Assembly (NCBI GenBank): GCA_019638575.1
Contig: JAHBTN010000021.1
Coordinates: 1 to 62,872 of the forward strand
DNA from: Ferruginibacter sp.
GTDB lineage: Bacteria > Bacteroidota > Bacteroidia > Chitinophagales > Chitinophagaceae
Reading direction: 5' to 3'
DNA: 62,872 nt
Part shown: positions 14,486 to 28,455 of the stretch, piece by piece
Layout: each line of letters begins with the position of its first letter
Position numbering within the stretch: the first letter of the stretch is position 1
The notes under the pieces: model-generated
Database searches by the model: none
The model's input: the letters and a program-made list of their open reading frames with translations, nothing else
Told to the model about the DNA's origin: nothing
Program-made: the position numbers and the translations under genes

Positions 14486-14517
14486 ACCCAATCGTTTCAG
14501 TAATTATTCCAATGCCA

Positions 14518-14602
14518 TGTTTCGTGGCTCACGAAACAGTACAAAGTGGCTCACGAAACAGTACAAATAATTTTTCGTTTCCTGTACCACAATCCGAGGA
14601 GC
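14518..14602. repeat. REP-like palindrome cluster 1
   Basis: TGTTTCGTG (14518-14526) and CACGAAACA (14530-14538) form a perfect 9-bp palindrome with loop GCT. The right half is duplicated: a 22-nt unit starting GTGGCTCACGAAACAG occurs at 14524-14545 and again, identical, at 14546-14567. A degraded inverted partner (TTTCGTTTCCTGTACCAC, then CGAGGAGCGA) follows to about 14602. It fills the gap between two glycosyltransferase genes. Confidence 0.85.
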
Positions 14603-14618
14603 GATTTTTTTAAAAATA

Positions 14619-15461
14619 ATGCTGGTTTCCATCATCATACCCACTTACAATAGTTTACCGCATTTGCCAACTGCTATAAACAGCATCCGAATGCAGCGCA
14701 TTACTGATTATGAGCTGTTGATAATGGACAATAACTCTACCGATGGCAGCATAGCATATATAGCCGAAATTCAAAAACAAGACAACCGCATTAAATTTTT
14801 TTCCGGCAGCGATAGCGGCATTTACGATGCCATGAATAAAGGCATTGCATTGGCCGGAGGGCAATGGCTTTACTTTATGGGTGCCGACGACAGGCTGGCC
14901 GGTACCGATGTATTGCAGCAGTTGCAGCCTTACTTACTGGAGGATTGGGATATGGTATATGGCGATTGTATCTGGATGCCCGAAGGCAGGCCCGAAAAAG
15001 GGGAGTGGAGCTATGAGCAATTTATAAAAGTCAATATCAATCACCAGCGTATTTTTTACAGAAAAATTCTTTTTGAAAAATATGGTGGCTACAATACCCA
15101 ATACAAAATTGCTGCCGACCACGAATTGAATATTCGCTTTTTTTGCAACAACCATATTCAAAAAAAATATGTACCCATATCTATTAGCCATTATCATTCG
15201 GGTGGCTTTAGCGCCAATAAGTTTGACCATTCTTTTTGGAAAAATTGGGATGCCATTATTTTAAAAAATTTTAAACCGCACCTCTCCGCAAAAAAAATTT
15301 ATGGCAGCCTGGGCACTTATATCCGGCACCTGGCCGATGAGGGCAAAACGATGCAGGCGCTCAAACTCATCGGTAAAAATTTTATCCATACCGGTAGCCC
15401 GGGCTTTATAAAACTGATGCTGAGTTATTTGATATCCTCAAAAAAGAAACATGCAGGCTGA
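14619..15461 (+). CDS. Glycosyltransferase family 2 (WcaA-like)
   Basis: A GT-A enzyme starting MLVSIIIPTYNSLPHL, with MDNNSTDGS, the acceptor-side SGIYDAMNKG motif and MGADDRL as the metal-binding loop. The SGIYDAMNKG type is common in colanic acid and Bacteroidota exopolysaccharide GT2 enzymes and resembles the protein at 33481. At 280 aa it has one domain with no membrane helices. The 3' end overlaps the next gene by 11 nt. Confidence 0.87.
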   Translation: MLVSIIIPTYNSLPHLPTAINSIRMQRITDYELLIMDNNSTDGSIAYIAEIQKQDNRIKFFSGSDSGIYDAMNKGIALAGGQWLYFMGADDRLAGTDVLQQLQPYLLEDWDMVYGDCIWMPEGRPEKGEWSYEQFIKVNINHQRIFYRKILFEKYGGYNTQYKIAADHELNIRFFCNNHIQKKYVPISISHYHSGGFSANKFDHSFWKNWDAIILKNFKPHLSAKKIYGSLGTYIRHLADEGKTMQALKLIGKNFIHTGSPGFIKLMLSYLISSKKKHAG

Positions 15462-16662
15462 TATTGCCATAATAGTAGTTGCTTACAACCGGCCACAGGC
15501 GCTTAGCCGCCTGCTTTCGTCGTTGCATGCTGCCGACTACAGCGGCTTTGCAAATATTCCGCTTATCATCAGTATTGATTATTCGGGTGATGATAAATGT
15601 GAGGCCATTGCCAGGCAGTTTGAATGGAAGCATGGACATAAAAATATAATTGCCCATACTCAAAACCTGGGACTAAAAAAACATATCCTGCAATGTGGCG
15701 ATATGGCTTTGCAGCATGATGGGGTAATTGTGCTGGAAGATGATCTCTTTGTTTCGCCGGCATTTTATCATTATGCACATCAGGCATACCGGTTTTATAA
15801 AGAAGATGAAACGATTGCCGGTATAGGATTGTATAATTACCCGTTTAATGAAATTGCCTTTTGCCCATTTGAGCCCATTGCAGATGGCTATGATAATTAT
15901 TTTATGCAGGTGCCTTGCTCTTGGGGCCAACTATGGACAAAAGCGCAGTGGCAAAAATTTTCACAATACCTGCAGGTAGATACAAAACCTACGAATAAGT
16001 TGTTACCTGCTGCGGTTCAGTCATGGCCTTCTGCCAGCTCATGGAAAAAATTATTTTACCAATACCTTATTGAGCATAATCTCTATTTTGTTTATCCAAG
16101 AAAAAGCTTAACCACTAATTATGGTGATATTGGCCAGCATCATCCAATGGAAATGATGGTTTGGCAAACACCGCTTTTGATAAATACAATGCCGTTCAGG
16201 TTTTCAACCCTTGAAACAGCTATAGCGGTATTTGATGCTTATTTTGAATTATCAGCCAAAGTTTTTAACCGGATAACCAACGCTAAACTTGATATTTGTA
16301 TTGACCTGTATGGCAGCAAACCATTGGTTGAGATCAACAATGCATTTTTACTATCATCCAAAAAATGTAATGCTCCACTAAAGAAATACGGGTTTAATTT
16401 ATATCCCTATATCAATAATGCATTGCTGGGGTTAGATAATAATACTTTAAACAGCAACTATTTTTCATTAGGCCCCACTGCTTCTTTCGCCGAAGAGCCG
16501 GGAACCGAAATACGTGCCATTGAAATAAACAGGGTTTTTTATAATAATAATTTACTGGTAGCAACCGGCCGAAATGAAGTGTACCGAACAAAGGAATTTA
16601 AAATAGGACATAACTTATTAAAGCCATTAAGATGGCTGAATCGTTTGTTCAAGTTGCAGTAA
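15451..16662 (+). CDS. GT-A glycosyltransferase, GNT-I/GT2-like
   Basis: The N-terminal half is a GT-A fold: IAIIVVAYNRPQAL, then ISIDYSGDD, NLGLKKHI, and the metal-binding VLEDDLF motif (LEDD at 95-98), which resembles the GT13 (GNT-I) type more than standard GT2. After about residue 240 the sequence is unlike common glycosyltransferases and I cannot assign it. It is 403 aa. Translational coupling to the upstream GT2 gene suggests they add consecutive sugars. Confidence 0.7.
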   Translation: MQADIAIIVVAYNRPQALSRLLSSLHAADYSGFANIPLIISIDYSGDDKCEAIARQFEWKHGHKNIIAHTQNLGLKKHILQCGDMALQHDGVIVLEDDLFVSPAFYHYAHQAYRFYKEDETIAGIGLYNYPFNEIAFCPFEPIADGYDNYFMQVPCSWGQLWTKAQWQKFSQYLQVDTKPTNKLLPAAVQSWPSASSWKKLFYQYLIEHNLYFVYPRKSLTTNYGDIGQHHPMEMMVWQTPLLINTMPFRFSTLETAIAVFDAYFELSAKVFNRITNAKLDICIDLYGSKPLVEINNAFLLSSKKCNAPLKKYGFNLYPYINNALLGLDNNTLNSNYFSLGPTASFAEEPGTEIRAIEINRVFYNNNLLVATGRNEVYRTKEFKIGHNLLKPLRWLNRLFKLQ

Positions 16663-16666
16663 TGCC

Positions 16667-16738
16667 CTTGCCCAGTTTCGTGGCTCAAGAAACAGTAGGA
16701 AACAAAAAATCGCTTCGTGTGTCACAAACCGAGGCGAA
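16667..16738. repeat. REP-like palindrome cluster 2 (degenerate inverted pair)
   Basis: An imperfect forward copy, CAGTTTCGTGGCTCAAGAAACAG (about 16673-16695), and an imperfect reverse copy around 16711-16735 ending CGAGGCG. The outer bases TGCCC on the left and GGCGA on the right keep the layout of an inverted pair. More diverged than clusters 3-5, so probably older. Confidence 0.75.
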
Positions 16739-16747
16739 GTTGCAGAA

Positions 16748-17752
16748 ATGAGTACCACTAAAATTTCCATCATCATACCTGTGTACAATGCAGGGGCTTT
16801 TTGCAGGCGTTGCATCCAATCTGTACTGGCGCAAAGCTTATCGGAAATTGAAGTCATACTGGTAAACGATGGCTCTATTGATGACAGTTTAAAAATTTTA
16901 AAGGAATTTGAGCAGCAAGACCCTCGGGTAGTTGTAATAAACAGCAGCAATTGTGGAGTGAGCGCTGCCCGCAATAAAGGGCTGGCCACAGCAAAAGGCC
17001 AATGGATAGCTTTTGCAGATGCGGATGACTGGATGGAACCTCAAATGCTGCAAGTACTTTATGATGCAGCCACCGGTTCAAATGCCGGCATGGCGGTTTG
17101 CAATGTAATTCAGCAAAAAACAACGCAGCATTCATCCACCAGGTTAAAACTAAACGATGAAATCATTCGCTTTAAAGACCATCCCGAAAAAGCAGTAGGG
17201 CAGATGATGAATTTTACATTCGACTTTGCCAACTGGAACAAGCTGTACCGGGCGCAAATCATCCGGCAACATGCTATTCGCTTTGATGAACATATTTGTA
17301 TTGGCGAAGACTTATTGTTTAACCTCTATTACCTGCATTATATAGATAGCATAGTTTGTGTAAACAAGCCGCTCTATCATTATCAAATCCACCAAAACTC
17401 GGCAATGGCACTGGGTGCAGATAAAAGGGTGGAGCAATACAACCTGCAGTTTAAAGCCTACCGGCAATTTGCCACAAAGAATGATTTAGAAAACGAATGG
17501 GAAATGTTTAGAAAAGCGATGGCAAGAGGATTTTATAATAGCCTGATACCGGAAATGATTAAAAATATTAAAACCCAAAAACTCAAAAGAACCGATGCAG
17601 TAAAACTATTGGGTGCAAATATTGCCGCACTTGATGCGGAAATTTTTTATTACCCGCAAAAGAAAATAGGATTGCAGGGGTTTAAGAAAACCTTGTTGGA
17701 AAAAAAACAGTTCCGGGTATTTGCACAATTAGTAGGGCTTAAACATTTTTAG
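16748..17752 (+). CDS. Glycosyltransferase family 2
   Basis: A GT-A enzyme: KISIIIPVYNAGAFCRRCIQSVL, VNDGSIDDS, NSSNCGVSAARNKGL and ADADDWM are the standard GT2 donor-site motifs. A HICIGEDLLFN segment near residue 190 contains the expected catalytic acid region. The C-terminal about 100 residues are helical and variable. It stands alone between two REP clusters, so it looks like a one-gene cassette. Confidence 0.87.
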   Translation: MSTTKISIIIPVYNAGAFCRRCIQSVLAQSLSEIEVILVNDGSIDDSLKILKEFEQQDPRVVVINSSNCGVSAARNKGLATAKGQWIAFADADDWMEPQMLQVLYDAATGSNAGMAVCNVIQQKTTQHSSTRLKLNDEIIRFKDHPEKAVGQMMNFTFDFANWNKLYRAQIIRQHAIRFDEHICIGEDLLFNLYYLHYIDSIVCVNKPLYHYQIHQNSAMALGADKRVEQYNLQFKAYRQFATKNDLENEWEMFRKAMARGFYNSLIPEMIKNIKTQKLKRTDAVKLLGANIAALDAEIFYYPQKKIGLQGFKKTLLEKKQFRVFAQLVGLKHF

Positions 17753-17780
17753 TTTTTAAAAAGGATTTCTCTTGCCCTGA

Positions 17781-17863
17781 TTCGTGACTCAATTCGCCCT
17801 GTTTCGTGACTCACTAAACAGCATAAAACATTTTTCGTTTCGTGGGCCACGAAACGAGGCGAA
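17781..17863. repeat. REP/BIME-like inverted pair, cluster 3
   Basis: A short partial copy at about 17781-17790 precedes a full inverted pair. The forward unit 17799-17821 has one mismatch between its arms. The reverse unit 17836-17856 has perfect 10-bp arms (CGTTTCGTGG / CCACGAAACG). The pair is bounded by TTCGCC (17793-17798) and its complement GGCGAA (17858-17863). The last part overlaps the longest possible reading frame of the downstream GT10 gene. Confidence 0.88.
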
Positions 17864-17889
17864 ACATTTTTAGCTTTAAAAAGAATTTC

Positions 17890-18837
17890 TTGCAAACAGT
17901 TAAAATAAACTTCGGCTACTTTTGGCCCGATTTTAATAATGAGGATAATTATTTTACTCGAGTACTTTCTTTAAAGTATAACGTAGAAATATCCGATAAC
18001 CCGGATTTCTACTTTTTTACGCATCCCTACAACGGCAAAAGAGATTACCTTAAGTACAAGTGCCACCGGGTTTTCCTGGGTTGGGAAAATGTAAGGGCCA
18101 ACTGGGATATTTGTGATTATGTATTGGATTCGGATTTTTACGAAAACAATCCACGGCACAAACGCTGGCCAATTTGGGCTTCATGGAACCCGATAAGATT
18201 AACAGCACCCAAAGAGCTGAAGCATTTTACCGGCAAAAAAAAGTTTTGCTGTATGGTGGTGTCAAACGGTAAGGCCAAAGAGCGTATTGAATTCTTCCAT
18301 CAGTTGAGTAAATACAAGCAGGTAGATTCCGGGGGCCGGTTTTTAAACAATATTGGTGGGCCGGTTGCAGATAAAATGAAATTCATCAGCGATTATAAGT
18401 TTGTGATTTCTTTCGAAAATTCTGCTTCGCCGGGATACACTACTGAAAAGCTGATTGAGCCCATGCTGGTAAACAGCATCCCCATATATTGGGGCAATAC
18501 AGCAGTGAGGAAAGATTTTAATACGGATAGCTTTATAAATATTGAAAACAGCCAATCCTTTGATGCTGCCATTGAAAAAATAATTGAACTGGATAGTAAT
18601 GAGGAAAAATACCTGGCCATGGCCGCACAACCCTGGTTGAATAATAACCAATTGCCCCGGGAATTTACACAGGAAAGCCTGGCAGCATTTTTTGATTTTG
18701 TAGTTGCAGACAGTAAAACCAAAAAGCCGGTTGCACTAAATTCATATAAAAATTTTAAGCACAAGACATCCATTTTTTTATACAGGCTAAGAGATTCATT
18801 CTATCACCGCTTGGGAATTAATAAAGGATTTAGATAA
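17890..18837 (+). CDS. Fucosyltransferase-like glycosyltransferase, family GT10
   Basis: A GT-B enzyme of the alpha-1,3/1,4-fucosyltransferase family, which uses GDP-fucose in characterised members. The C-terminal donor-site motif is very clear: KFVISFENSASPGYTTEK followed by NSIPIYWG. The N-terminal part begins VKINFGYFWPDF, as in bacterial GT10 proteins. The frame is open back to GTG at 17842, but those 16 codons are REP sequence, so I prefer TTG at 17890 (315 aa). No GDP-fucose synthesis genes lie in the window. Confidence 0.87.
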   Translation: MQTVKINFGYFWPDFNNEDNYFTRVLSLKYNVEISDNPDFYFFTHPYNGKRDYLKYKCHRVFLGWENVRANWDICDYVLDSDFYENNPRHKRWPIWASWNPIRLTAPKELKHFTGKKKFCCMVVSNGKAKERIEFFHQLSKYKQVDSGGRFLNNIGGPVADKMKFISDYKFVISFENSASPGYTTEKLIEPMLVNSIPIYWGNTAVRKDFNTDSFINIENSQSFDAAIEKIIELDSNEEKYLAMAAQPWLNNNQLPREFTQESLAAFFDFVVADSKTKKPVALNSYKNFKHKTSIFLYRLRDSFYHRLGINKGFR

Positions 18838-18846
18838 ATTAATACT

Positions 18847-19455
18847 ATGAGTACAATTTTCGAAAAAATAAAATTCAGGCTACAAAACTTTTTTGCAAAA
18901 AAAGAAGTGGTGCCTTCTATTACCGAAAAAAGAGAAGTGATAGAATCATATAGAGTCCTTTACCAGTCAAAAATTTTTATTGAAACCGGAACCTTCCTGG
19001 GCGATACAGTTGAATATTTTAAAAACAAGTTTCACTCAATAATATCTATTGAGCTAAGTGAAGATTTGGCCAACAAAGCAAAAAAGCGGTTTGAAAACGA
19101 TAAGCAGGTTCAAATAATACAGGGTGATAGCAGCAAAATTTTACCAACATTGGTAAATCATATAAAAGAGCCGATATTGTTTTGGCTTGATGGCCATTAT
19201 TCATCAGAGTTTTTTGTAAAGGATGAATTTATAAGAACTGCCAAAGGCGATAGCAATACACCGATAGTTAAAGAGTTGGAAATAATTTTAGCCGCTTGTG
19301 CGTTTCCTGTCATTTTAATAGATGATGCCCGACTTTTTAACGGCACCAATGATTACCCATCCATCAATGCTATCAAGAACCAGGTAAATGAAACCGGAAA
19401 ATCTTTTACAATTCAGGTAAGCAACGATATCATACAAATACTTCCCCAAAAATGA
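18847..19455 (+). CDS. Class I SAM-dependent methyltransferase-like protein
   Basis: A Rossmann-fold methyltransferase candidate. IETGTFLGDTVEYF resembles SAM-binding motif I, followed by ISIELSEDLANKAKKRF (acidic ribose-binding residue) and VQIIQGDSS; FWLDGHYSS provides the post-motif aspartate. The target is unknown, but the place between GT10 and FkbM genes suggests sugar methylation. It overlaps the next gene by 4 nt. At 202 aa it is a single domain. Confidence 0.7.
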   Translation: MSTIFEKIKFRLQNFFAKKEVVPSITEKREVIESYRVLYQSKIFIETGTFLGDTVEYFKNKFHSIISIELSEDLANKAKKRFENDKQVQIIQGDSSKILPTLVNHIKEPILFWLDGHYSSEFFVKDEFIRTAKGDSNTPIVKELEIILAACAFPVILIDDARLFNGTNDYPSINAIKNQVNETGKSFTIQVSNDIIQILPQK

Positions 19456-20162
19456 TAAAGAGAATTTTTAGGTCAGCAAATTATCATACAAGAAAAATAC
19501 TGTTCGAAAAATTTGCCCTGCCTAAAACGGTAAATGAAAAAATATCGAAGGTTATTTTAAAAAAGTACCTGCCAGCAAACCCTGTAATTATAGACTGTGG
19601 CGCTCATGATGGTTCTGATACAGTAGAATTGATACGCCTGTTTAAAACTGCAAGCATCCATTCATTTGAACCGGTTGATGCGCTTTTTGAAAAACTGAAG
19701 GCTCATACCGTCCGTTTCCAGAATATTCATACCTATAAATTAGCGCTGAGTAATACCAATGGTTGGAGTGATTTTCATATAAGTGAAGGAGAGTCTGATG
19801 GTTCCAGTTCACTGTTGCCTCCATTAGAGCACTTAAAAGATCATCCTGCAACAAAATTCAACACTATCATTAAAGTAAAAACAATCACACTGGATGATTG
19901 GGCGAAAGAACAAAATATATCAAATGTAGATTTACTTTGGCTGGATATGCAGGGCTTTGAATTAAATATGCTTAAAGCAAGTAGTCATATTTTAAAAACT
20001 GTCAAAGTCATTCACACCGAAGTAAGTACCCGGGAAACCTATAAGGGAGTGCCACAATATGCAACATATAGGAAATTTTTGGAGCAGCAGGGCTTTAAAG
20101 TAGTGATAGAAGCTTTACCCAAAGGGTGGGATATGGGCAATGTATTGTTTGTAAGGAAATAA
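19452..20162 (+). CDS. FkbM family methyltransferase (copy 1)
   Basis: A SAM-dependent O-methyltransferase of the FkbM family. Motif I is IIDCGAHDGSDT (about 47-57), followed by SFEPVDALFEKL and the family signature LLWLDMQGFELNMLKAS. Typical length (236 aa). Such enzymes in polysaccharide loci likely methylate sugar hydroxyls. It ends 10 nt before REP cluster 4 and the RAYT gene. Confidence 0.88.
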   Translation: MIKRIFRSANYHTRKILFEKFALPKTVNEKISKVILKKYLPANPVIIDCGAHDGSDTVELIRLFKTASIHSFEPVDALFEKLKAHTVRFQNIHTYKLALSNTNGWSDFHISEGESDGSSSLLPPLEHLKDHPATKFNTIIKVKTITLDDWAKEQNISNVDLLWLDMQGFELNMLKASSHILKTVKVIHTEVSTRETYKGVPQYATYRKFLEQQGFKVVIEALPKGWDMGNVLFVRK

Positions 20163-20171
20163 AATGAACCA

Positions 20172-20297
20172 TTCGCCCTGTTTCGTGGCTCACGAAACAG
20201 CATAAAATATTTTTTCATTTCGTGAGCCACGAAACGAGGCGAAAATTGAACTCTTGCTCTGTTTCGTGACTCACGAAACGAGGCGAAAATTGAACTA
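20172..20297. repeat. REP/BIME-like cluster 4, upstream of the RAYT gene
   Basis: A full inverted pair: forward unit 20178-20200 (perfect 10-bp arms), reverse unit 20216-20236 (one mismatch), bounded by TTCGCC (20172-20177) and GGCGAA (20238-20243). A hybrid third copy at 20259-20280 has the left end of a forward unit and the right end of a reverse unit. The 25-nt stretch at 20228-20252 recurs exactly at 20272-20296, showing a 44-bp local duplication. Confidence 0.92.
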
Positions 20298-20301
20298 ACA
20301 A

Positions 20302-20850
20302 TTGCAATCATTACGAAAATCATATAGCGAAACCGGGAAAATTTATTTTTTTACAACCACTATTCTTCAATGGAAAACATTGCTACAGGATGATATAAAT
20401 AAAAAGCTTATAACGGATTACTTAAAAGAACTGGTGGATAGAGAATTGATAAAACTATATGCCTTTGTTATCATGCCAAATCATATCCACCTGATATGGC
20501 AACTACTTAAAAAAAACGGTAAAGAAACACCTCAGGGAAGTTTTTTGAAATACACAGCCCATGAGTTATTAAAGAGGTTAAAGCAACAGGGTTTGTCAGG
20601 AGAGTACGAAGTGGTTGCAACAAATAAACGACATGAAATATGGCAAAAAGACCCGTTAAGTATTGAAGTATATAGTAGGGAAGTTGCCAGGCAAAAATTA
20701 GAATATATCCATTTTAATCCGGTGAGCAGGAAGTGGAAATTGTCGAATGATGATCTGGATTATTATTACTCATCAGCCAGATTTTATGAAAATGGAATTG
20801 ATGAGTTTAAAATGCTGAGTAATTTATATGTGGAGTTTGATGGAGAATAA
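20302..20850 (+). CDS. REP-associated tyrosine transposase (RAYT, Y1/HUH family)
   Basis: A single-strand DNA transposase-like nuclease that in studied cases binds and cuts REP hairpins. The HUH motif is PNHIHLIW (His61, His63) and a catalytic tyrosine candidate lies in EYIHFNPV (Tyr135; which tyrosine acts is uncertain). YYYSSARFY near the end resembles the usual RAYT Y-SS ending. At 182 aa it is intact, with no frameshift. The start is TTG at 20302, right after REP cluster 4; no ATG fits. It has the same orientation as the polysaccharide genes, so it may be co-transcribed. Confidence 0.9.
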   Translation: MQSLRKSYSETGKIYFFTTTILQWKTLLQDDINKKLITDYLKELVDRELIKLYAFVIMPNHIHLIWQLLKKNGKETPQGSFLKYTAHELLKRLKQQGLSGEYEVVATNKRHEIWQKDPLSIEVYSREVARQKLEYIHFNPVSRKWKLSNDDLDYYYSSARFYENGIDEFKMLSNLYVEFDGE

Positions 20851-20860
20851 AACATCGAAC

Positions 20861-21070
20861 TTCACCCTGTTTCGTGACTCACGAAACAGTATAGAACATT
20901 TTCTCATTTCGTGAGCCACGAAATGAGGCAATGAAAATCATCTTTCGTTACGTAGGGCAACGAGACGTAGGAGCTACTCCATCGCCCTGTTTCGTGACTC
21001 ACGAAACAGCATAAAGCATTCTCTCGTTTCGTGAGTCACAAAACGAGGCGATGAGCCACGAAACGAGGCG
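20861..21070. repeat. REP/BIME-like cluster 5, downstream of the RAYT gene
   Basis: Two inverted pairs. Pair one: forward 20867-20889 (perfect) and reverse 20905-20925 (CATTTCGTG / CACGAAATG, perfect with both arms changed). Pair two: forward 20987-21009 (perfect) and reverse 21025-21045 (one mismatch), bounded by TCGCC (20982-20986) and GGCGA (21047-21051). A diverged copy lies at about 20945-20966 and a half copy (GAGCCACGAAACGAGGCGA) from about 21053 to 21071. The spacers within pairs are similar (ATA-ACATT words). Confidence 0.92.
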
Positions 21071-21081
21071 AGCAAAATAAA

Positions 21082-21951
21082 ATGAACCAACCGCTTGTTT
21101 CCATATTAATGACGGCCTATAACCGGCAACAGTTCATTGCAGAAGCCATTGAATCTGTGCTGGCATCTACTTACACCAACTGGGAGTTGATAATTGTGGA
21201 CGATGGCAGCAGCGACAATACCGTAGCCATTGCCCAAAGCTATGCCGCCAAAGATGAACGAATACGGCTGTATGTAAATGAAAAAAATTTAGGCGACTAT
21301 CCCAATCGCAATAAAGCGGTTTCTTATGCCACCGGTGAGTATATCCATTTTTGCGATTCGGATGATAAATTGTTCGCAGATAGTATCCATAAAATATTAT
21401 CCATTGTGGATGGAGATCCTCAGTTTAATTTTGCCATGTACTGGCCACACTCTAATGATACGTTTACGCTGGCCGGTAGCAAAGCTTTGCATAAACATTT
21501 TTTTGAGCAACAGTTTTTATACATGGGGCCGGGTGGTACCTTTATCCGGCGCAGCTTTATCAATGCCATTGGCGGCTATCCTACAAAATATGGCCCGGCC
21601 AATGATATGTACTTTAATTTAAAAGCAGCCTGCCATTCGCCGGTAACGCTTATCCCTTTTGAACTGAATTTTTACAGGCGGCACGATGGGCAGGAAATCA
21701 ATAACCGTTTTAATTATATGTACAATAATTACCGGTATATGAGAGATGCAATAAACGAACTGCCGCTTCCATTTACTGCTAACCAACTGGAATGGCTGCA
21801 CAAAAAAAACAAACGGCGTTTTGCTGTTCATCTTTTTAATTTCCTGCGGCGTACCCGTAACATCAAAAAAACAAGAGAAGCTTGTACCCATGCCAACTTT
21901 GGTATCGGCGATTTTGTGCAGGGTGTTTTGTACTTTAAAAAAAAGCCATAG
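21082..21951 (+). CDS. Glycosyltransferase family 2
   Basis: A GT-A enzyme: LVSILMTAYNRQQFIAEAIESVL, VDDGSSDNT, NLGDYPNRNKAV and FCDSDDKL are the standard donor-site motifs. The MGPGGTFIRRSF region and a basic C-terminal helix follow. It is the first gene after REP cluster 5 and starts a run of tightly packed genes (gaps of 0-6 nt) up to 24854. Specificity is unknown. Confidence 0.87.
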   Translation: MNQPLVSILMTAYNRQQFIAEAIESVLASTYTNWELIIVDDGSSDNTVAIAQSYAAKDERIRLYVNEKNLGDYPNRNKAVSYATGEYIHFCDSDDKLFADSIHKILSIVDGDPQFNFAMYWPHSNDTFTLAGSKALHKHFFEQQFLYMGPGGTFIRRSFINAIGGYPTKYGPANDMYFNLKAACHSPVTLIPFELNFYRRHDGQEINNRFNYMYNNYRYMRDAINELPLPFTANQLEWLHKKNKRRFAVHLFNFLRRTRNIKKTREACTHANFGIGDFVQGVLYFKKKP

Positions 21952-21957
21952 CAACAC

Positions 21958-22683
21958 ATGAATATTGTAAAAAAGATCATCCGCCAGGCCACCGGTTACT
22001 GGGTGCACAAATTAAAAACGCTGCCCATTGGCACCGACCTGTTTTATGATATTACCAAACGCTTGCAATACGGCAACCTGCACACGGTATTTGACATTGG
22101 CGCCAATGAGGGCCAAACCGTTAAATGGATAAAGCACCACCAGCCCCTTGCACACATTTATTCATTTGAGCCGGTGGCAGACACTTTTGAAAAATTAAAA
22201 CAGCAGGTGAGCAATTACCGGCATTGCCGGGTGGAGCAATTGGCAATGGGCGAAGCTCCGGGCGAAAAGAAAATAAAATTATTTTCCGATTACTCGGTAC
22301 TCAATTCACTGAACGAAAAGGCAATGAACAATGATGCCGATGCCAAGGAAGAAATTATTGTTATAGATACATTGGACAATTATTGCAAAAAAAACAAGAT
22401 AAACAAGATAGACCTGCTAAAAATAGATACCGAGGGTTATGAGCTAAATGTATTACAGGGTGCCGAACAAATGCTGGCCCAAAAACACATCAGTTTTATT
22501 TATTGCGAAGTGGGTTTTAATACAACCAATGGACGCAATACCAGTTTTGAGGCGCTGAGCAATTTCCTGGAAAAAAGAGATTGTTTTTTTTATGCCTTAT
22601 ATCAAATAGACAGCCACGACTGGAAGGCAGGTAATCATTTGGCCAATGCCCTGTTTATTCAAAAAGATGTTTTCCCTTTGTGA
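21958..22683 (+). CDS. FkbM family methyltransferase (copy 2)
   Basis: A SAM-dependent methyltransferase: motif I VFDIGANEGQTV, then YSFEPVADTFEKL, and the FkbM signature LLKIDTEGYELNVLQGAE with YCEVGFN downstream. It is 241 aa and resembles the copy at 19452 in layout but is clearly divergent. Its stop overlaps the next start (TGATG), so the two are coupled. Probable target: a hydroxyl on the polymer. Confidence 0.88.
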   Translation: MNIVKKIIRQATGYWVHKLKTLPIGTDLFYDITKRLQYGNLHTVFDIGANEGQTVKWIKHHQPLAHIYSFEPVADTFEKLKQQVSNYRHCRVEQLAMGEAPGEKKIKLFSDYSVLNSLNEKAMNNDADAKEEIIVIDTLDNYCKKNKINKIDLLKIDTEGYELNVLQGAEQMLAQKHISFIYCEVGFNTTNGRNTSFEALSNFLEKRDCFFYALYQIDSHDWKAGNHLANALFIQKDVFPL

Positions 22684-23648
22684 TGTCTCAAAAAGTTTCC
22701 ATCATAATGCCGGTGTACAATTCGGCAGCCTTTTTGCAAAAATCGGTACAGTCCCTGCTGCAGCAAACCTATCCCAATATTGAAATCATTATTGTGGATG
22801 ATTCATCAACGGATAATAGCTATGCCATAGCACAATCGCTGGTTGCTGAAAAACTAAAGGTTTTACAGCAACCCAATGCCGGTGCAGCCATTGCCCGCAA
22901 TACCGGCCTTGCCGCAGCTACCGGCGATTATATCCAGTTTATGGATGTGGATGATTTTTTATCGCCGGATAAAATTGAAAAGCAGGTGGCAGCACTACAG
23001 CAGCGCCCCGGATGCCTGGCCGTATGCAACTACATTAGTTTTGTACAGGATGAGGAGTTGGATAAACCCATCAAGGTAGAAGAGCAGGGGCATTTTATTT
23101 ACAGCTCCAATAATCCGGCCCATTTTTTAATTGACCTCTTAGGTGCAAAGGGCGAAAGCAATTTTATACAAACCAATTGCTGGCTCATTCCCCGGCCACT
23201 CATTGAAAAAGCCGGTGGCTGGCGGGCTTACCGATGCCCCGATGATGATGGTGAATTTTTTAGCCGCATTATCCTGGCCAGCGAAGGCATTGTGCATGTG
23301 CCCGGCATATTCAACTATTACCGCCGTGATAAACGAGCCAATAAATTGAGTGCCCATCCGGGAAATAAATATCTTCAAAATGTATTGCTGACCATTGACC
23401 TCAAATACGGGTATTTAAAAAACAGGGTAGAGGATGATTTATTGCGAAAAGCATTTGCCAAGCAGTACCTCGACTATGCCATTAACCATTATCCGCAATG
23501 CAAAAAATTATCAGCAATTGCCTATAGAAGATTTAAAACAATGAACAGGAAAGCCGAACTGCCTTTGTTGGGTGGCCGCATGATTGAGGCCATAAAAAAT
23601 ATTTTGGGATGGAAAGCGGCCCGGTTATTAAAATATTATTGTAGATAG
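22683..23648 (+). CDS. Glycosyltransferase family 2
   Basis: A GT-A enzyme with KVSIIMPVYNSAAFLQKSVQSLL, VDDSSTDNS, NAGAAIARNTGLA and FMDVDDFL; a PDDDGEFF segment supplies a probable catalytic acid. ATG at 22683 overlaps the upstream stop; a GTG one codon earlier is less likely. It is 321 aa from this start, followed without a gap by the next glycosyltransferase. Confidence 0.88.
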   Translation: MSQKVSIIMPVYNSAAFLQKSVQSLLQQTYPNIEIIIVDDSSTDNSYAIAQSLVAEKLKVLQQPNAGAAIARNTGLAAATGDYIQFMDVDDFLSPDKIEKQVAALQQRPGCLAVCNYISFVQDEELDKPIKVEEQGHFIYSSNNPAHFLIDLLGAKGESNFIQTNCWLIPRPLIEKAGGWRAYRCPDDDGEFFSRIILASEGIVHVPGIFNYYRRDKRANKLSAHPGNKYLQNVLLTIDLKYGYLKNRVEDDLLRKAFAKQYLDYAINHYPQCKKLSAIAYRRFKTMNRKAELPLLGGRMIEAIKNILGWKAARLLKYYCR

Positions 23649-24854
23649 TTGGCAAAGCAAATTCTTTTTATTACAACCCATAACCTGGCCACCAATCCCC
23701 GGCTGGTAAAAGAAATGGAACTGGCCCTGCAAAATAATTTTGCGGTAAGTGTTATTTGTTTTGAGTTCAACAACTGGAGCAGGCAATTGAATGAGGAATT
23801 GAAAAATAAATTTGGCTCAAAAATAAACTATACCGGTATTCCGGGTAATCGAAAACCCTTGTGGCCCTGGCTGATGAGCAGTTTGCTTTTCATTTTATCG
23901 AAATGGGTTTTAATTTTTCTACCGCAAAGTAAATTTTGGCTTTCGGTACGATGCAATAAAAGAAGCTGGCTTTTAATGCAGGCTTTAAAAAAAATGTCCG
24001 GCAATTATCAACTGCTGCTGGCACATAACGCCGGTAGTTTTTACCCGGCTTTACAATTTGCTACAAAGCATAACATTCCCCTGGGCATTGATTTGGAAGA
24101 TTACCATCCCGGCGAAAGTAAACAGGAAAGGATAAATAATTTTTTTAAACAATTGAACCGGGCAATACTTCCCAAAGCTACATTTATAACGGCGGCCTCA
24201 CCCGATATTTTAGAACACTCAGAAAAAGACTTAGGTGTAGCCTTAAAAAATAAACGGGTGGTATTGAATTATTTTCCATCCACTGAGTTTGAATTATCTG
24301 TAGCGAATAACTCAGCCGGGTTATCCCTGGTTTGGTTTTCACAAAACATTTCTTTTGGGCGGGGCTTAGAGCAATTGATTCCGGTTATAAAAAATAATCC
24401 TTCAATAGCATTGCACTTGTTTGGCCATTGTAATGCCCACTTTAAAAACCAATGGCTCAATGATGCTGAAAATATACATGTACATCACCCTTTACCACAG
24501 GTACAATTGCACAGGCGGTTGAGTCAGTTTGATGTAGGGTTGGCTATTGAACCTGGCAAGGATTTAAACAATGAACTGGCGCTGTCGAATAAAATGCTGG
24601 CCTATTTTCAGTCTGGTACTTTTATTTTGGCGAGCAATACCCCGGCACAAAGCAGGTTTTTAAATTTATTTCCAGAACATGGTTTGGTTAGCGGCCTGCA
24701 AACTCCTGAACTGAAACAGGCAATGGAAACCCTGCTGCAACAAAAAGAAAGCATAAGGGCATTGGCAAAACAAAGATTTGAAAAAGCCCGCTTGCACAAT
24801 TGGGAAATCGAATCACAAAGCCTGCTTGAATTGTGGAAAGGGCACAGCAATTGA
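23649..24854 (+). CDS. GT-B glycosyltransferase (GT4-like)
   Basis: The N-terminal domain begins KQILFITTHNLATNPRLVKEMELAL, typical of Bacteroidota GT4-type enzymes, and the middle has DLEDYHPGE. The C-terminal domain includes VHHPLPQVQLHRRLSQFDVGLAIEPG and LALSNKMLAYFQSG, where the usual EX7E motif is degenerate. It uses a TTG start directly abutting the upstream stop. At 401 aa it is of normal length. The fold is well supported, the specificity is not. Confidence 0.8.
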   Translation: MAKQILFITTHNLATNPRLVKEMELALQNNFAVSVICFEFNNWSRQLNEELKNKFGSKINYTGIPGNRKPLWPWLMSSLLFILSKWVLIFLPQSKFWLSVRCNKRSWLLMQALKKMSGNYQLLLAHNAGSFYPALQFATKHNIPLGIDLEDYHPGESKQERINNFFKQLNRAILPKATFITAASPDILEHSEKDLGVALKNKRVVLNYFPSTEFELSVANNSAGLSLVWFSQNISFGRGLEQLIPVIKNNPSIALHLFGHCNAHFKNQWLNDAENIHVHHPLPQVQLHRRLSQFDVGLAIEPGKDLNNELALSNKMLAYFQSGTFILASNTPAQSRFLNLFPEHGLVSGLQTPELKQAMETLLQQKESIRALAKQRFEKARLHNWEIESQSLLELWKGHSN

Positions 24855-24867
24855 AAAAAACTATCCA

Positions 24868-25058
24868 CTGTTTCGTAGCCCACAAAACAGGAAGAAATCA
24901 CAATGCCTTGTTTCGTGGCTCACGAAACAGGAAGAAATAAAATTAACATTACGCTTCGTGTGCCACGAAACGTGGCAAAAAAACATGCCCGGTTCGTGTC
25001 TCACAAAACTTGAAGAATAATATTTCGTTATGCCTTGTTTCGTGAGGCTCGAAACAAG
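24868..25058. repeat. REP-like palindrome cluster 6
   Basis: Five related but diverged palindromes: 24868-24890, 24908-24930, about 24951-24973, about 24991-25010 and 25034-25058. The last has perfect arms CTTGTTTCG / CGAAACAAG around a 7-nt loop, an end sequence unlike the other clusters. The first two are followed by the same word, CAGGAAGAAAT. The cluster separates two glycosyltransferase genes. Confidence 0.85.
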
Positions 25059-25072
25059 TTGAATCATCCGTT

Positions 25073-26356
25073 TTGAAAAAAATCTTAATCCTCTATCCGC
25101 ATTTTCCACCATCCAACCTGGCCGGTGTGCACAGGCCAAGGCTTTTTGCACAACACCTGCCTGCATTTGGCTGGGAGCCGGTAATCCTTACCGTGCATGA
25201 AAACTATTATGAAGAAGCACCGGATTGGAACCTGGTAAAATTATTGCCCCCCAATTTGAGGATAGAAAAAGTAAATGCATTTGCCATCACAAAACCCCGG
25301 CTTATTGGCGATATTGGGTTAAGAGCATTATGGCAATTGTATAAAAGGGCAAAACAACTGATAAAGACAGAGGGTTTCGATTTTTTATACATACCCATTC
25401 CTTCATTTTATTGTGCTCTTCTGGGGCGTATGCTGCATCGCAAAACAGGAATTAAATATGGCATTGATTATATTGATCCCTGGGTGCATGATTTTCCCGG
25501 CAGCAACAAATTGTTTTCCCGGCATTGGTGGAGCAAGAAGTTGGCGGGTTTGTTGGAACCCATCGCCATTAAAGAAGCATCGCTCATTACCGGTGTGGCC
25601 GAAGGGTATTATACAGCAGTGCTGGAAAGAAATCCGCATCTAAAACAACAAGCGGTTTTTGGCGCCATGCCCTATGGTGGTGAGGAAGCTGATCATCTAG
25701 TATTAAAAACATTGCAGTTAAAGCCTTACCTGTTTACAAAAGAAAGCGGAGTTTTTAAACTGGTATATGCCGGGGCCATGTTGCCCAAAGCCTATACCGT
25801 TTTAGAAGCAGTGTTTCGTAGCCTTGCAGGTATTGAAATAGACAAATCAAAAATTCAGTTTCATTTTATTGGCACCGGCAAAACGCCGGATGACCCCGAA
25901 GGGTATAATATCAAAGCATTGGCCGGGCGCTATGGCTTATGGCAAACCATAGTGTACGAATATCCCCGGCGCATTCCTTACCTGGATGTGCTGGTGCATC
26001 TGCAAGAGGCAGATGGTATCTTTATAATGGGCAGCACCGAGCCGCATTATACACCCAGCAAATCGTACCAGGGCATCCTTAGTGGCAAGCCCATACTGGC
26101 CTTACTGCATGCGCAAAGTACGGCAGTGGAAGTTTTAAAAAATTCCAATGCTGCCCATGTACTCCATTTTAATGGTGAAGCAGATTTAAAATACATTGAA
26201 AATAATTTTCGGGCTGCATTAAATGCATACCTTAACTGGTCGGCTAATTTCAACAGTAGCCAGGTCAACAAGGAAGCATTCCATCCCTATTCTGCAAAAG
26301 CCGTAACCGGCAAGCTGGCGGCATTGCTGGATGCGGTGGTAGATAAAGAAACTTAA
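25073..26356 (+). CDS. GT-B glycosyltransferase (GT4-like)
   Basis: The N-terminus KKILILYPHFPPSNLAGVHRPRLFAQHL matches a common Bacteroidota GT4-like family; YGIDYIDPWVHDFPG is a conserved acceptor-domain motif. The C-terminal Rossmann domain includes FKLVYAGAMLPKAYTVLE and YTPSKSYQGILSGKPILALLH, with Ser-Lys in place of the classical EX7E. The start is TTG at 25073, shortly after REP cluster 6. It is 427 aa. Confidence 0.82.
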   Translation: MKKILILYPHFPPSNLAGVHRPRLFAQHLPAFGWEPVILTVHENYYEEAPDWNLVKLLPPNLRIEKVNAFAITKPRLIGDIGLRALWQLYKRAKQLIKTEGFDFLYIPIPSFYCALLGRMLHRKTGIKYGIDYIDPWVHDFPGSNKLFSRHWWSKKLAGLLEPIAIKEASLITGVAEGYYTAVLERNPHLKQQAVFGAMPYGGEEADHLVLKTLQLKPYLFTKESGVFKLVYAGAMLPKAYTVLEAVFRSLAGIEIDKSKIQFHFIGTGKTPDDPEGYNIKALAGRYGLWQTIVYEYPRRIPYLDVLVHLQEADGIFIMGSTEPHYTPSKSYQGILSGKPILALLHAQSTAVEVLKNSNAAHVLHFNGEADLKYIENNFRAALNAYLNWSANFNSSQVNKEAFHPYSAKAVTGKLAALLDAVVDKET

Positions 26357-26391
26357 ACTAAGGCTTTAAAATTCTCAGTTTTTAATGCATA

Positions 26392-27291
26392 ATGATTAGT
26401 AAGTTGTTTCAGATAAAACGCTTTATTGATACCCATCCACTATCGGGGAAGCATAGGATAAAAGCATATACTCGTTTTATTTCATGGCAGCTTCAACAGT
26501 TTTTTTATCGCCGTGAAAAAATAGTGCCGTTCATTGGTACTACTAAATTATCGGTTTCAAAAGGAATGACAGGAGCCACAGGGAATATATATACCGGGCT
26601 TCATGAATTTACAGATATGGGTTTCTTGCTTCATTTTTTAAGGGGTAACGATTTGTTTTTTGATATTGGTGCTAATATAGGCTCCTATACGATATTAGCT
26701 GCAGGGCATGTAGGATCAAGAACAATTGCATTTGAACCTGTATCGGCAACTTTTAATTCGCTTGTAAAGAATATTGAGCTAAACAAGTTAAAAAATATAG
26801 CCACAGCACTAAACATTGGGCTAGGAAAAAATAAATCTGTTCTTCATTTCACAAAAAATTTAGACACTGTTAATCATGTTGTTTATGATTTGTCGAAAGC
26901 AAATACGGGTTCAACAATTGAAGTGCCGGTAGAAAGTGTTGATGAAATGGTTTTACAAAATGGAGTTCCCAATTTAGTTAAGATAGATGTAGAAGGTTTT
27001 GAAACTGAAGTGTTGGCCGGAATGTTACAAACACTGAAACAAGAAAAGTTGAAAGCAATAATAATTGAATTGAACGGCTCCGGCAAAAGGTATGGTTTTG
27101 ATGAAGACTTACTGGATGCTCAATTAAGGGATAATAAATTTATACCTTATACCTATGATCCGTTTAAACGAAACCTGGTACCGGTTCAAAAACATGATAA
27201 CCTTAATACAATTTATATCAGGGATATTAATTTTGTAACAAACAGGCTCATGAATGCTAAAAAGATAAAAGTTTTTTCAGAAGAGTTTTAG
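26392..27291 (+). CDS. FkbM family methyltransferase (copy 3)
   Basis: A SAM-dependent methyltransferase: FFDIGANIGSYTILAA (motif I), TIAFEPVSATFNSL, and the signature NLVKIDVEGFETEVLAGML. At 299 aa it is the longest of the three FkbM-like proteins in the window, with an extended N-terminus (FYRREKIVPFIGTTKLSV) like many capsule-linked members. The stop codon directly abuts the ATG of the next gene. Confidence 0.88.
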   Translation: MISKLFQIKRFIDTHPLSGKHRIKAYTRFISWQLQQFFYRREKIVPFIGTTKLSVSKGMTGATGNIYTGLHEFTDMGFLLHFLRGNDLFFDIGANIGSYTILAAGHVGSRTIAFEPVSATFNSLVKNIELNKLKNIATALNIGLGKNKSVLHFTKNLDTVNHVVYDLSKANTGSTIEVPVESVDEMVLQNGVPNLVKIDVEGFETEVLAGMLQTLKQEKLKAIIIELNGSGKRYGFDEDLLDAQLRDNKFIPYTYDPFKRNLVPVQKHDNLNTIYIRDINFVTNRLMNAKKIKVFSEEF

Positions 27292-28455
27292 ATGAAACGC
27301 CTCGCCATCATTACCACCCATCCCATTCAATACAATGCTCCTTTATTTCAATTGCTGGCAGAGCGAAAAAATATAGCCATCAAAGTTTTTTATACCTGGG
27401 GTGATACCGTATTGAAAAAAAAATACGATCCGGGTTTTCAAAAAAATATTGAATGGGATATTCCTTTACTGGAAGGCTATGATTATGCATTTGTAGAAAA
27501 CAAGGCTGCCAATAAAGGCTCTCATCATTTTAAAGGCATTGATAACCCAACACTCATCGGACAAATTGAAACATGGCAGGCCGATGCATTGCTTATTTAT
27601 GGCTGGAGTTTTAAAAGTCATTTAAAGTTAATGCGATATTTTAAAGGAAAGAAAAGGATATTTTTCCGGGGTGATTCTACCTTATTAGATGAAACAAAAA
27701 AATTCTCAATAAAAAAAATAGCAAGAAAGTTTTTTTTAAAATGGGTTTATAAAAAAGTGGATACGGCAGTATATACCGGAACTGCTAATAAACATTACTA
27801 TTTAAAATTCGGGTTAAAAGAAAATCAACTGCTATTTGCCCCACATGCAATTGAAATCAGCAGGTTCATTCAAAACCCTGTATCAGGTTGGCGTAATAAG
27901 TTAGCGATTCCCGAAACTGCAATTGTTTTTTTATTTGCCGGTAAATTAGAAACAAAAAAAAATCCGGCCTTGTTATTGGATGCATTTATTGAACTGGAAG
28001 TGCCCAACACTTTTTTATTGATTGTTGGCAATGGTATTCTTGAAAATCAGTTAAAACAAAAATGGCAATCGTTACCACAAACATTGCAAAAGCAGATTTT
28101 TTTTATTGATTTTGTAAACCAACAGGCAATGCCGTCTTTATATAATACCTGCGATGTATTTGTGTTGCCATCGCAGGGGCCCGGCGAAACCTGGGGTTTA
28201 TCAGTTAACGAGGCAATGGCCTGCGGAAAGTCAATTTTGGTAAGTGATAAATGTGGTTGTGCGGAGGATTTAGTAATGAATGAAAAAAATGGTTATACCT
28301 TTCAATCGGGTAATAAAGTAGATTTGGAAAATAAGATTTTGTTGATGGCATCTGATAAAAATAAACTGGATGAAATGGGGAAGCAATCGCTTAGTATCAT
28401 TAATGAATGGAATTTTGAAAAAGTGGCTGCAGCAATCGAAGCAGCGGTTAAGTAA
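27292..28455 (+). CDS. Glycosyltransferase family 4
   Basis: A GT-B enzyme: MKRLAIITTHPIQYNAPLFQLLAE at the N-terminus, then FLFAGKLETKKNPALLLDAF (start of the donor domain) and VLPSQGPGETWGLSVNEAMACGKSILVS, the GT4 EX7E region with Glu-Thr-Trp-Gly-Leu and Asn-Glu. At 387 aa it is of normal length. Packed between a methyltransferase and the Wzy-like gene. Confidence 0.88.
   Translation: MKRLAIITTHPIQYNAPLFQLLAERKNIAIKVFYTWGDTVLKKKYDPGFQKNIEWDIPLLEGYDYAFVENKAANKGSHHFKGIDNPTLIGQIETWQADALLIYGWSFKSHLKLMRYFKGKKRIFFRGDSTLLDETKKFSIKKIARKFFLKWVYKKVDTAVYTGTANKHYYLKFGLKENQLLFAPHAIEISRFIQNPVSGWRNKLAIPETAIVFLFAGKLETKKNPALLLDAFIELEVPNTFLLIVGNGILENQLKQKWQSLPQTLQKQIFFIDFVNQQAMPSLYNTCDVFVLPSQGPGETWGLSVNEAMACGKSILVSDKCGCAEDLVMNEKNGYTFQSGNKVDLENKILLMASDKNKLDEMGKQSLSIINEWNFEKVAAAIEAAVK

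Follow-up and report, generated by a model that had tools for sequence, protein, structure and literature searches.

A hairpin-flanked RAYT gene with a GCC foot in a Ferruginibacter polysaccharide locus, and relatives in Bacteroidota that appear to form mobile units

In the REPtrons of RAYT groups 2 and 3, known from E. coli, Pseudomonas, and Stenotrophomonas, the gene of an HUH/Y1 protein, the REP-associated tyrosine transposase (RAYT, or TnpA-REP), is surrounded by inverted hairpins, the repetitive extragenic palindromic (REP) sequences; gene-less inverted pairs occur elsewhere, hairpins and protein co-evolve, and REPs sometimes lie near the gene (PMC2817692; this and the other papers are cited for the accessible parts of their text). 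In the literature, RAYTs count as domesticated genes for which there is "no evidence of tnpAREP mobility", and the dissemination of REPs is stated to be unresolved (PMC8266576). No RAYT mobility is reported in the accessible parts of the publications from 2010, 2018, and 2021 (PMC2817692, PMC6006769, PMC8266576), and a 2024 article describes a putative insertion of RayT close to a Chryseobacterium gene (PMC11194056). Here, a stretch of 62,872 nucleotides from Ferruginibacter sp. (Bacteroidota; assembly GCA_019638575.1, contig JAHBTN010000021.1), hereafter called the window, was analyzed together with its relatives. The feature under study, located in a polysaccharide locus, comprises a RAYT, its REPs, and REP doublets forming long hairpins (REPINs), and its hairpins carry the foot GCC instead of GT[AG]G. 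The RAYT, the REPs, and the absence of GTAG fit a known kind of system; new are the evidence for mobility of the unit and the long direct repeats abutting it, of which no print report was found in the open-access literature. The explanation that we consider probable, judging from sequence comparisons, is that the gene belongs to a GCC-foot branch of Bacteroidota RAYTs in which gene and inverted hairpins form a mobile unit, hairpin pairs are its derivatives, and insertion produces long target duplications.

The locus shares with REPtrons the features listed above, including the REPIN structure, also known as the bacterial interspersed mosaic element (a long hairpin made of two REPs in inverted orientation), which is present in the window. 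It differs in its foot, which in this family is GCC (or YTA, GTT, or CCC/TCC, depending on the clade) rather than GT[AG]G, and in units that are multicopy in some genomes, change place, and at some sites are flanked by long direct repeats. TnpA-Y1 subclass 2.6 (RAYT group 5) is likewise found mostly in Bacteroidetes, its lack of GT[AG]G has already been published, and it possesses atypical flanking hairpins with copies elsewhere (PMC6006769); for that subclass, the accessible text describes neither mobility nor a GCC foot at fixed spacing nor target duplication. The HUH-Y spacing of the window protein is 72 residues (H63 to Y135), compared with a median of 82 in subclass 2.6, the subclass being represented in this comparison by its description only (PMC6006769). 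Elements of the insertion sequence (IS) family IS200/IS605, such as IS608 and ISDra2, resemble our units in being small and mobile, in encoding a Y1 HUH transposase, and in ending in hairpins whose 5' foot is guide-like. Their end hairpins, however, have the same orientation, and they are reported to be without terminal inverted repeats or larger target duplications (PMC2817692), whereas the units studied here have inverted hairpins, with one on each strand, and flanking repeats were found at 17 of 111 of them. TIRYT elements (PMC3733652) also hold a RAYT-like gene within inverted repeats; these repeats often share GGGGWSAS, and most of the elements belong to subclass 2.1 with helix-turn-helix (HTH) C-termini (PMC6006769). 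In contrast, the end repeats described here are GCC-foot hairpins, and no HTH family matched the window RAYT in Pfam or NCBIfam at E<=0.001.

The RAYT gene is an uninterrupted open reading frame (ORF) whose product carries the motif H61-I-H63 and Y135, residues that are invariant across relatives (alignments of 25 and 36 sequences). The protein matches the NCBIfam model NF047646 (REP-associated tyrosine transposase) with 81 bits at a cutoff of 80, whereas its match to Pfam Y1_Tnp stays below the cutoff (21.4 versus 23 bits). The sole match to a solved structure was E. coli TnpArep (4er8, E 0.004), and a search of PHROGs returned a single weak family of unknown function. When the whole window was searched with the core GTTTCGTGRCTCACGAAAC, allowing up to 3 mismatches, 28 two-strand matches were obtained, corresponding to 16 distinct palindromes that all lie within 14519-25055; shuffled windows gave a mean of 0.01 matches and at most 1. 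The palindromes fall into six clusters between genes. Most form inverted pairs with TCGCC and GGCGA at their outer sides, and half or decayed extra copies accompany them, e.g., at 14546, 17779, and 21052. Fifteen of the 16 lie outside the 13 ORFs compared; the exception, 17837-17855, overlaps a GTG start listed at 17842. Folding of the inverted pairs as single-stranded DNA was far below that of shuffles (z -5.5 to -10.2; six strands, five places). The gene and clusters are as follows.

14514..14599, no strand: REP cluster 1, a single good hairpin together with a half and a decayed one (pattern and inverted-repeat search)
16670..16734, no strand: REP cluster 2, inverted pair, decayed (pattern and inverted-repeat search)
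17774..17860, no strand: REP cluster 3, inverted pair and partial hairpin (pattern, inverted-repeat, folding)
20172..20287, no strand: REP cluster 4, inverted pair and one hairpin, immediately upstream of the RAYT gene (pattern, inverted-repeat, folding)
20302..20850, + strand: RAYT gene, TTG start, 182 aa, HIH 61-63, Y135 (ORF, profile and structure matches)
20862..21073, no strand: REP cluster 5, on the downstream side of the RAYT gene, with half a hairpin and two inverted pairs (pattern, inverted-repeat, folding)
24864..25059, no strand: REP cluster 6, five hairpins in the gap between GT4a and GT4b (pattern and inverted-repeat search)

The initial annotation of the window had described an intact HUH/Y1 gene flanked by repeat pairs, and this is borne out by the open reading frame, the NF047646 match, and clusters 4 and 5 on either side. 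Its figure of about 18 palindromes in six clusters is fair, given 16 at up to 3 mismatches plus the half and decayed copies, and the inverted pairs bounded by TCGCC and GGCGA are real according to both the inverted-repeat search and the folding below shuffles. The single weak copy that it placed elsewhere in the window was not recovered at up to 3 mismatches.

Mobility was assessed in 20 genomes picked for several RAYT hits (21 groups are listed, two of which, L177 and G308, represent one contig). While the gene is present as a single copy in the window's own genome, near-identical units of 563-660 bp (91.8-99.8% identity) were found in 10 of these 20, with homology that stops and flanks that are unrelated, so that the description "single, immobile gene copy" does not hold for the family. 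Seven of the remaining genomes had no near-identical units, and G352 (88-94%), G091 (88%, partial), and G309 were counted apart. Both unit ends lie 2-6 nt outside the feet in G246, G045, G222, G294, and G219, where units read, for example, TCGCC...GGCGGAG or CCGCC...GGCGGAA from end to end; the same holds for the right end in G239 and for the left end in Mucilaginibacter (L187). For synteny, 12 pairs were compared, seven of which are congeneric with units at least 80% identical. Six of these seven were without a syntenic flank (one of the six has a 74% stretch stemming from a dispersed repeat), and one was fully syntenic. Between G091 and G219, the occupied site of each species is syntenic with an unoccupied site in the other. 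The neighborhood in G294 is a patchwork of repeats, and a clean empty site was not obtained there; a search of plasmids with a Pedobacter flank gave no match. Taken together, the Bacteroidota RAYT gene with its flanking inverted hairpins appears to behave as a mobile unit. Separately, two loci of G309, L239 (C10) and L240 (C18), were seen to share at least 3.46 kb of identical DNA including a broken RAYT gene, which may reflect a large duplication of recent date or an artifact of assembly.

Two cases formed the starting point for an analysis of the flanks: a REPIN in the sister genome G325 and a unit in G321, each located between two copies of a neighboring gene end (103/111 and 106/143 identical positions, respectively). 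The 73-bp REPIN of G325 is additional with respect to the window, in which the approximately 110-bp stretch flanking it on both sides is present as a single copy; this is the one pair available for an occupied/unoccupied comparison of a REPIN. For 111 units, the best overlap was determined between the DNA ending at the left foot and the DNA starting after the right foot. Known duplicate records were excluded; three units in the set still repeat a place already represented (L233 twice, L226), none of them positive. At 17 of the 111 units, direct repeats that abut the unit and measure about 20-200 bp scored above the maximum of 1500 mismatched pairs, a score reached by 11 of 2060 random segments of similar length from the same loci (Fisher p 4e-16; about 1e-8 if only the ten cleanest units are taken). 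Under different settings, and with fewer hairpins tried in the null, the test had earlier given 15/97 versus 0/250. The longest repeats were those of L212 (189/200 bp), L222 (175/184), L176 (128/137), L193 (50/54), and L079 (43/45); that of L136 comprises 49 aligned bp, and the clearest copies (L212, L222, L176, L193, L136, and L079) are 92-96% identical. The fact that the copies differ from each other, and that L176 (Pedobacter mendelii CCM 8939) and L193 (Roseivirga spongicola UST030701-084) are from named isolates, argues against assembly error. Among REPIN-like pairs, 7 of 18 exceeded the maximum of 3000 nulls. Within the window, cluster 3 lies between a 34-bp and a 31-bp copy (28/31 aligned; 0/234 nulls), the whole RAYT block is bracketed by exact copies of a 15-mer that occurs at just these two places on the window's + strand (1/234 nulls), and cluster 2 is located between weak copies (1/234 nulls). 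The respective coordinates are given below.

17740..17773, + strand: left flanking direct repeat of cluster 3 (flank test)
17861..17891, + strand: right flanking direct repeat of cluster 3 (flank test)
20157..20171, + strand: 15-nt direct repeat left of the RAYT block (flank test)
21075..21089, + strand: 15-nt direct repeat right of the RAYT block, across the GT2e start (flank test)
21877..21982, + strand: single copy of the stretch that flanks the G325 REPIN on both sides (comparison with G325)

We read these repeats as putative long target-site duplications, such as would arise from staggered insertion into both strands.

Left and right hairpins of similar stem surround the RAYT gene in 104 of 151 loci; without duplicate records and one spurious pair, the count is 98 of 144 unique loci, compared with 5 of 705 stretches drawn at random from these loci. 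For the analysis of the foot, the 151 loci were reduced to 97 by dropping 47 without a pair, four duplicate records, the spurious pair L138, and two short proteins; the identical-gene pair L224/L226 was kept. At 11-13 nt before the loop (read foot-first), GCC was found at 66 loci, YTA at 10, and other sequences at 21; GT[AG]G, the foot of the canonical RAYT groups, is not that of this family. On the protein tree, the distribution of GCC versus YTA requires 1 change, compared with a mean of 9.6 for shuffled labels (0/500 as low; branch support 93, unstarred), and with "other" as a third label the tree requires 12 changes. As the foot label tracks the protein tree, foot and hairpin diversify together with the enzyme. 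Nunvar et al. reportedly found such co-diversification of hairpin and enzyme for GTAG-type RAYTs. By their titles, the 80 top-ranking named relatives come from Bacteroidota, the query alignment having been built from one family. These results support the initial annotation in its view of a Bacteroidota RAYT with cognate repeats and a replaced GTAG, and the comparison of RAYT phylogeny with repeat sequence that it had proposed comes out in favor of cognate pairing. A more distant Y1 unit (32% identical) was observed in G034 in three copies on three contigs (L237, L238, and L113; 97-99% identical), with the end hairpin GCAACGTC...GACGTTGC preceded by TAATTCCCA.

How such a unit might move can be sketched as follows. 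A mobile unit of about 600-660 bp would give rise to gene-less hairpin pairs as small nonautonomous derivatives. Because the hairpins are inverted, each strand offers one foot-first hairpin, and it is the presence of two hairpins on opposite strands that leads us to propose joining to both target strands: the RAYT would join one element end per target strand, with an offset of roughly 20-200 nt, possibly on single strands exposed at a fork. Gap filling would copy the interval and produce a long target-site duplication of variable length, which could keep a gene end intact when an element lands there. Later recombination between the flank copies may result either in precise loss or in tandem amplification; short-range hopping combined with it would account for the piling up of repeats around the RAYT gene of the window, and recombination between copies would likewise explain why REPIN arrays in Pseudomonas fluorescens SBW25 include flanking DNA (PMC3116915). 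In its widest form, the proposal would hold that Bacteroidota RAYTs are live transposons rather than domesticated enzymes, that their HUH/Y1 chemistry acts on two strands at independent target sites 20-200 nt apart, that the same step places REPINs, and that flank recombination yields excision and arrays; this we put forward tentatively, as a possibility somewhat short of an even chance. If true, the staggered two-strand model would separate RAYTs mechanistically from IS200/IS605, and one step would explain both excision and tandem arrays of REPINs, linking the spread, loss, and multiplication of REPs. Recently copied units whose ends are readable to a few bases, together with flank duplications that may record the insertion, constitute natural substrates on which the mechanism can be tested from end to end.

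A number of observations weigh against the mobile-unit explanation. No flanking repeat above the null was found at 94 of the 111 units. Among the positive ones, the copies of L231, L163, L169, L190, and the inner pair of the window contain hairpins or a second unit, and that of L066 holds a dispersed repeat, leaving about ten of the 17 clean. Of the 11 control segments that pass, four derive from one locus, L228, and in three of the seven positive REPINs the flanks include hairpin sequence (L162 and window 24905) or N (L165:5686). Clusters 1 and 6 of the window showed no flanking repeat in the strict test, and the sister sites of L079 (intergenic DNA, three genomes) are too diverged to show one copy. 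The unit ends in G308 and G043 could not be placed at the feet, and G034 belongs to a subfamily that is further removed and has different hairpins. Distances of just 0.6-3.3 kb separate many unit copies, making local duplication possible; clearly separate contigs were found for copies only in G239 and G034 (and in G352 at 88-94%). The 20 genomes compared had been selected for multiple hits, and three of the six nonsyntenic pairs include a short contig (L055, L063, L060). As the window RAYT is a single copy, its mobility is deduced from relatives. Finally, RAYT homologues were present in only 6 of 72,556 plasmid records, all less than 32% identical, which is unlike typical ISs. Apart from this, L228:5700-6300 was noted to contain large tandem duplications near the RAYT region, the source of the four highest control scores.

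The alternative closest to the published view (PMC2817692, PMC6006769, and PMC8266576, in their accessible parts) is a conventional immobile REPtron whose REPINs are mobilized in trans, with the copies of the unit and the flanking repeats generated by local duplication through slippage or recombination at hairpins. The single-copy state of the window RAYT, the proximity of many unit copies, the one fully syntenic congeneric pair, and the hairpin-bearing tandem duplications in G325 (112 bp x2 and 81 bp x2) all fit it. We regard it as rather unlikely nonetheless, because homology halts at the feet with unrelated DNA beyond, also across contigs in G239, because G091 and G219 have reciprocal unoccupied sites, and because tandem duplication of a unit with its flank would not leave the boundary of the repeats at the feet across this many loci. 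Mobile units with long target duplications thus remain our preferred explanation.

Two further alternatives assign the repeats to the polysaccharide genes. They might serve the operon as terminators, attenuators, or mRNA stabilizers, with the RAYT being incidental, and indeed every one of the six clusters lies in a gap between genes of the same strand, and G325, which has no RAYT match, retains hairpins in the corresponding slots. However, REP hairpins account for only two of the window's 18 terminator-like sites, both on the minus strand and thus opposite to transcription; no Rfam family was matched, copy number and slots vary between sister species, and the orthologous loci of G241 and G300 have no hairpins, all of which makes an operon role quite improbable. 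Alternatively, the hairpins could be sites at which the RAYT exchanges glycosyltransferase cassettes by recombination, as borders of gene content between the window and G325 coincide with REP clusters 1, 2, and 5. Since three of seven breakpoints at REPs compare with about two expected (6/19 gene junctions; hand count), the change at 26334-27304 is without a REP, and the RAYTs of relatives are not in such loci, cassette exchange is highly improbable.

G325 carries the same polysaccharide locus (80-90% DNA identity) with the same hairpins in corresponding slots, and no RAYT match was found in it at E<=1e-10. The counterpart of the cluster at 24864-25059 is down to one good hairpin there, and gene content differs from that of the window at 16368-16665, 18847-20979, and 26334-27304. 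Repeats in a relative without a RAYT had been named in advance as a finding that would speak against a link between the two, and G325 presents it in part; since its repeats, feet, and pairing are the same as in the window, loss of the RAYT would account for this genome better than independence of RAYT and repeats. Against L124, gene replacement between sister species was seen in the polysaccharide locus at window positions 26334-27304 and 18847-20979, with borders partly free of REPs.

Pattern and protein searches covered the window's own genome, which comprises 3.41 Mb in 38 contigs. At up to 3 mismatches, 42 two-strand matches at 29 sites were obtained, 16 of them in the locus and 13 elsewhere (eight on C37, three on C34, and two on C1), whereas 11 of the 12 sites with up to 1 mismatch are in the locus. 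The exact repeat family is therefore confined to the locus, and sister variants are present elsewhere in the genome; the confinement claimed earlier stands for the former and not for the latter. The variant hairpins on C34 adjoin a decayed RAYT remnant of 27 aa (C34:193490), and five of the other places with hairpins are loci without a match to the cluster proteins of the window. Within the genus (93 genomes), 64 have a RAYT relative at E<=1e-10 and 32 the palindrome at up to 2 mismatches. The hairpins are near the RAYT in G245 (9/9 within about 7 kb) and G219 (9/11 within 5 kb) and dispersed in G235 (18) and G055 (15). Clustering of this kind had been called unusual for REPs, yet RAYT-proximal REPs were reported in 2010 from three marine gammaproteobacteria and Thauera (PMC2817692, accessible text). 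G003 and G096 contain 116 and 87 copies, respectively, of a GTTCGTG hairpin, an expansion in RAYT-bearing genomes; in each of the two, the best RAYT match contains a stop codon.

The neighbors of the RAYT gene in the window encode glycosyltransferases, FkbM methyltransferases, a fucosyltransferase, and export proteins. When 31 cluster proteins of the window were compared with 822 ORFs of 60 family loci (three of which, L110-L112, have no RAYT match), glycosyltransferase-2 matches were found in none of the 60; most glycosyltransferase queries detected each other in a self-search, GT2c did not. The 12 matches obtained comprise ATP-binding cassette ATPases, a weakly matching carbamoyltransferase (L090, L093), and two unnamed cluster proteins (L077, L092). 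A glycosyltransferase-2 was present in 1 of 80 named RAYT loci. In 1 of 14 genus loci (G321), the RAYT is located between GT4a and GT4b of the orthologous polysaccharide locus, indicating that such loci are hit now and then; the same slot is without a RAYT in G241 and G300. The special tie to the polysaccharide locus that had been suggested is not supported by these counts, the RAYT is probably not generally tied to polysaccharides, and the cluster is probably merely a tolerant, fast-changing landing site. An exopolysaccharide-specific function was rejected on the basis of the 60 family and 80 named loci. The window contains 36 promoter-like sites, versus 34.9 in shuffles, and 18 terminator-like sites, versus 12.3.

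A second RAYT-like gene is present in the own genome at C8:43168-43656 (L017:4190-4920), ringed by another palindrome family, GTTGTTGGTC...GACCAACAAC, which can be written as GTTGTTGGTC[AG]GGCGACCAACAAC. Additional Y1 genes or fragments were detected with NF047646 at C1:104756, C38:84680, C5:29739, and C29:1961.

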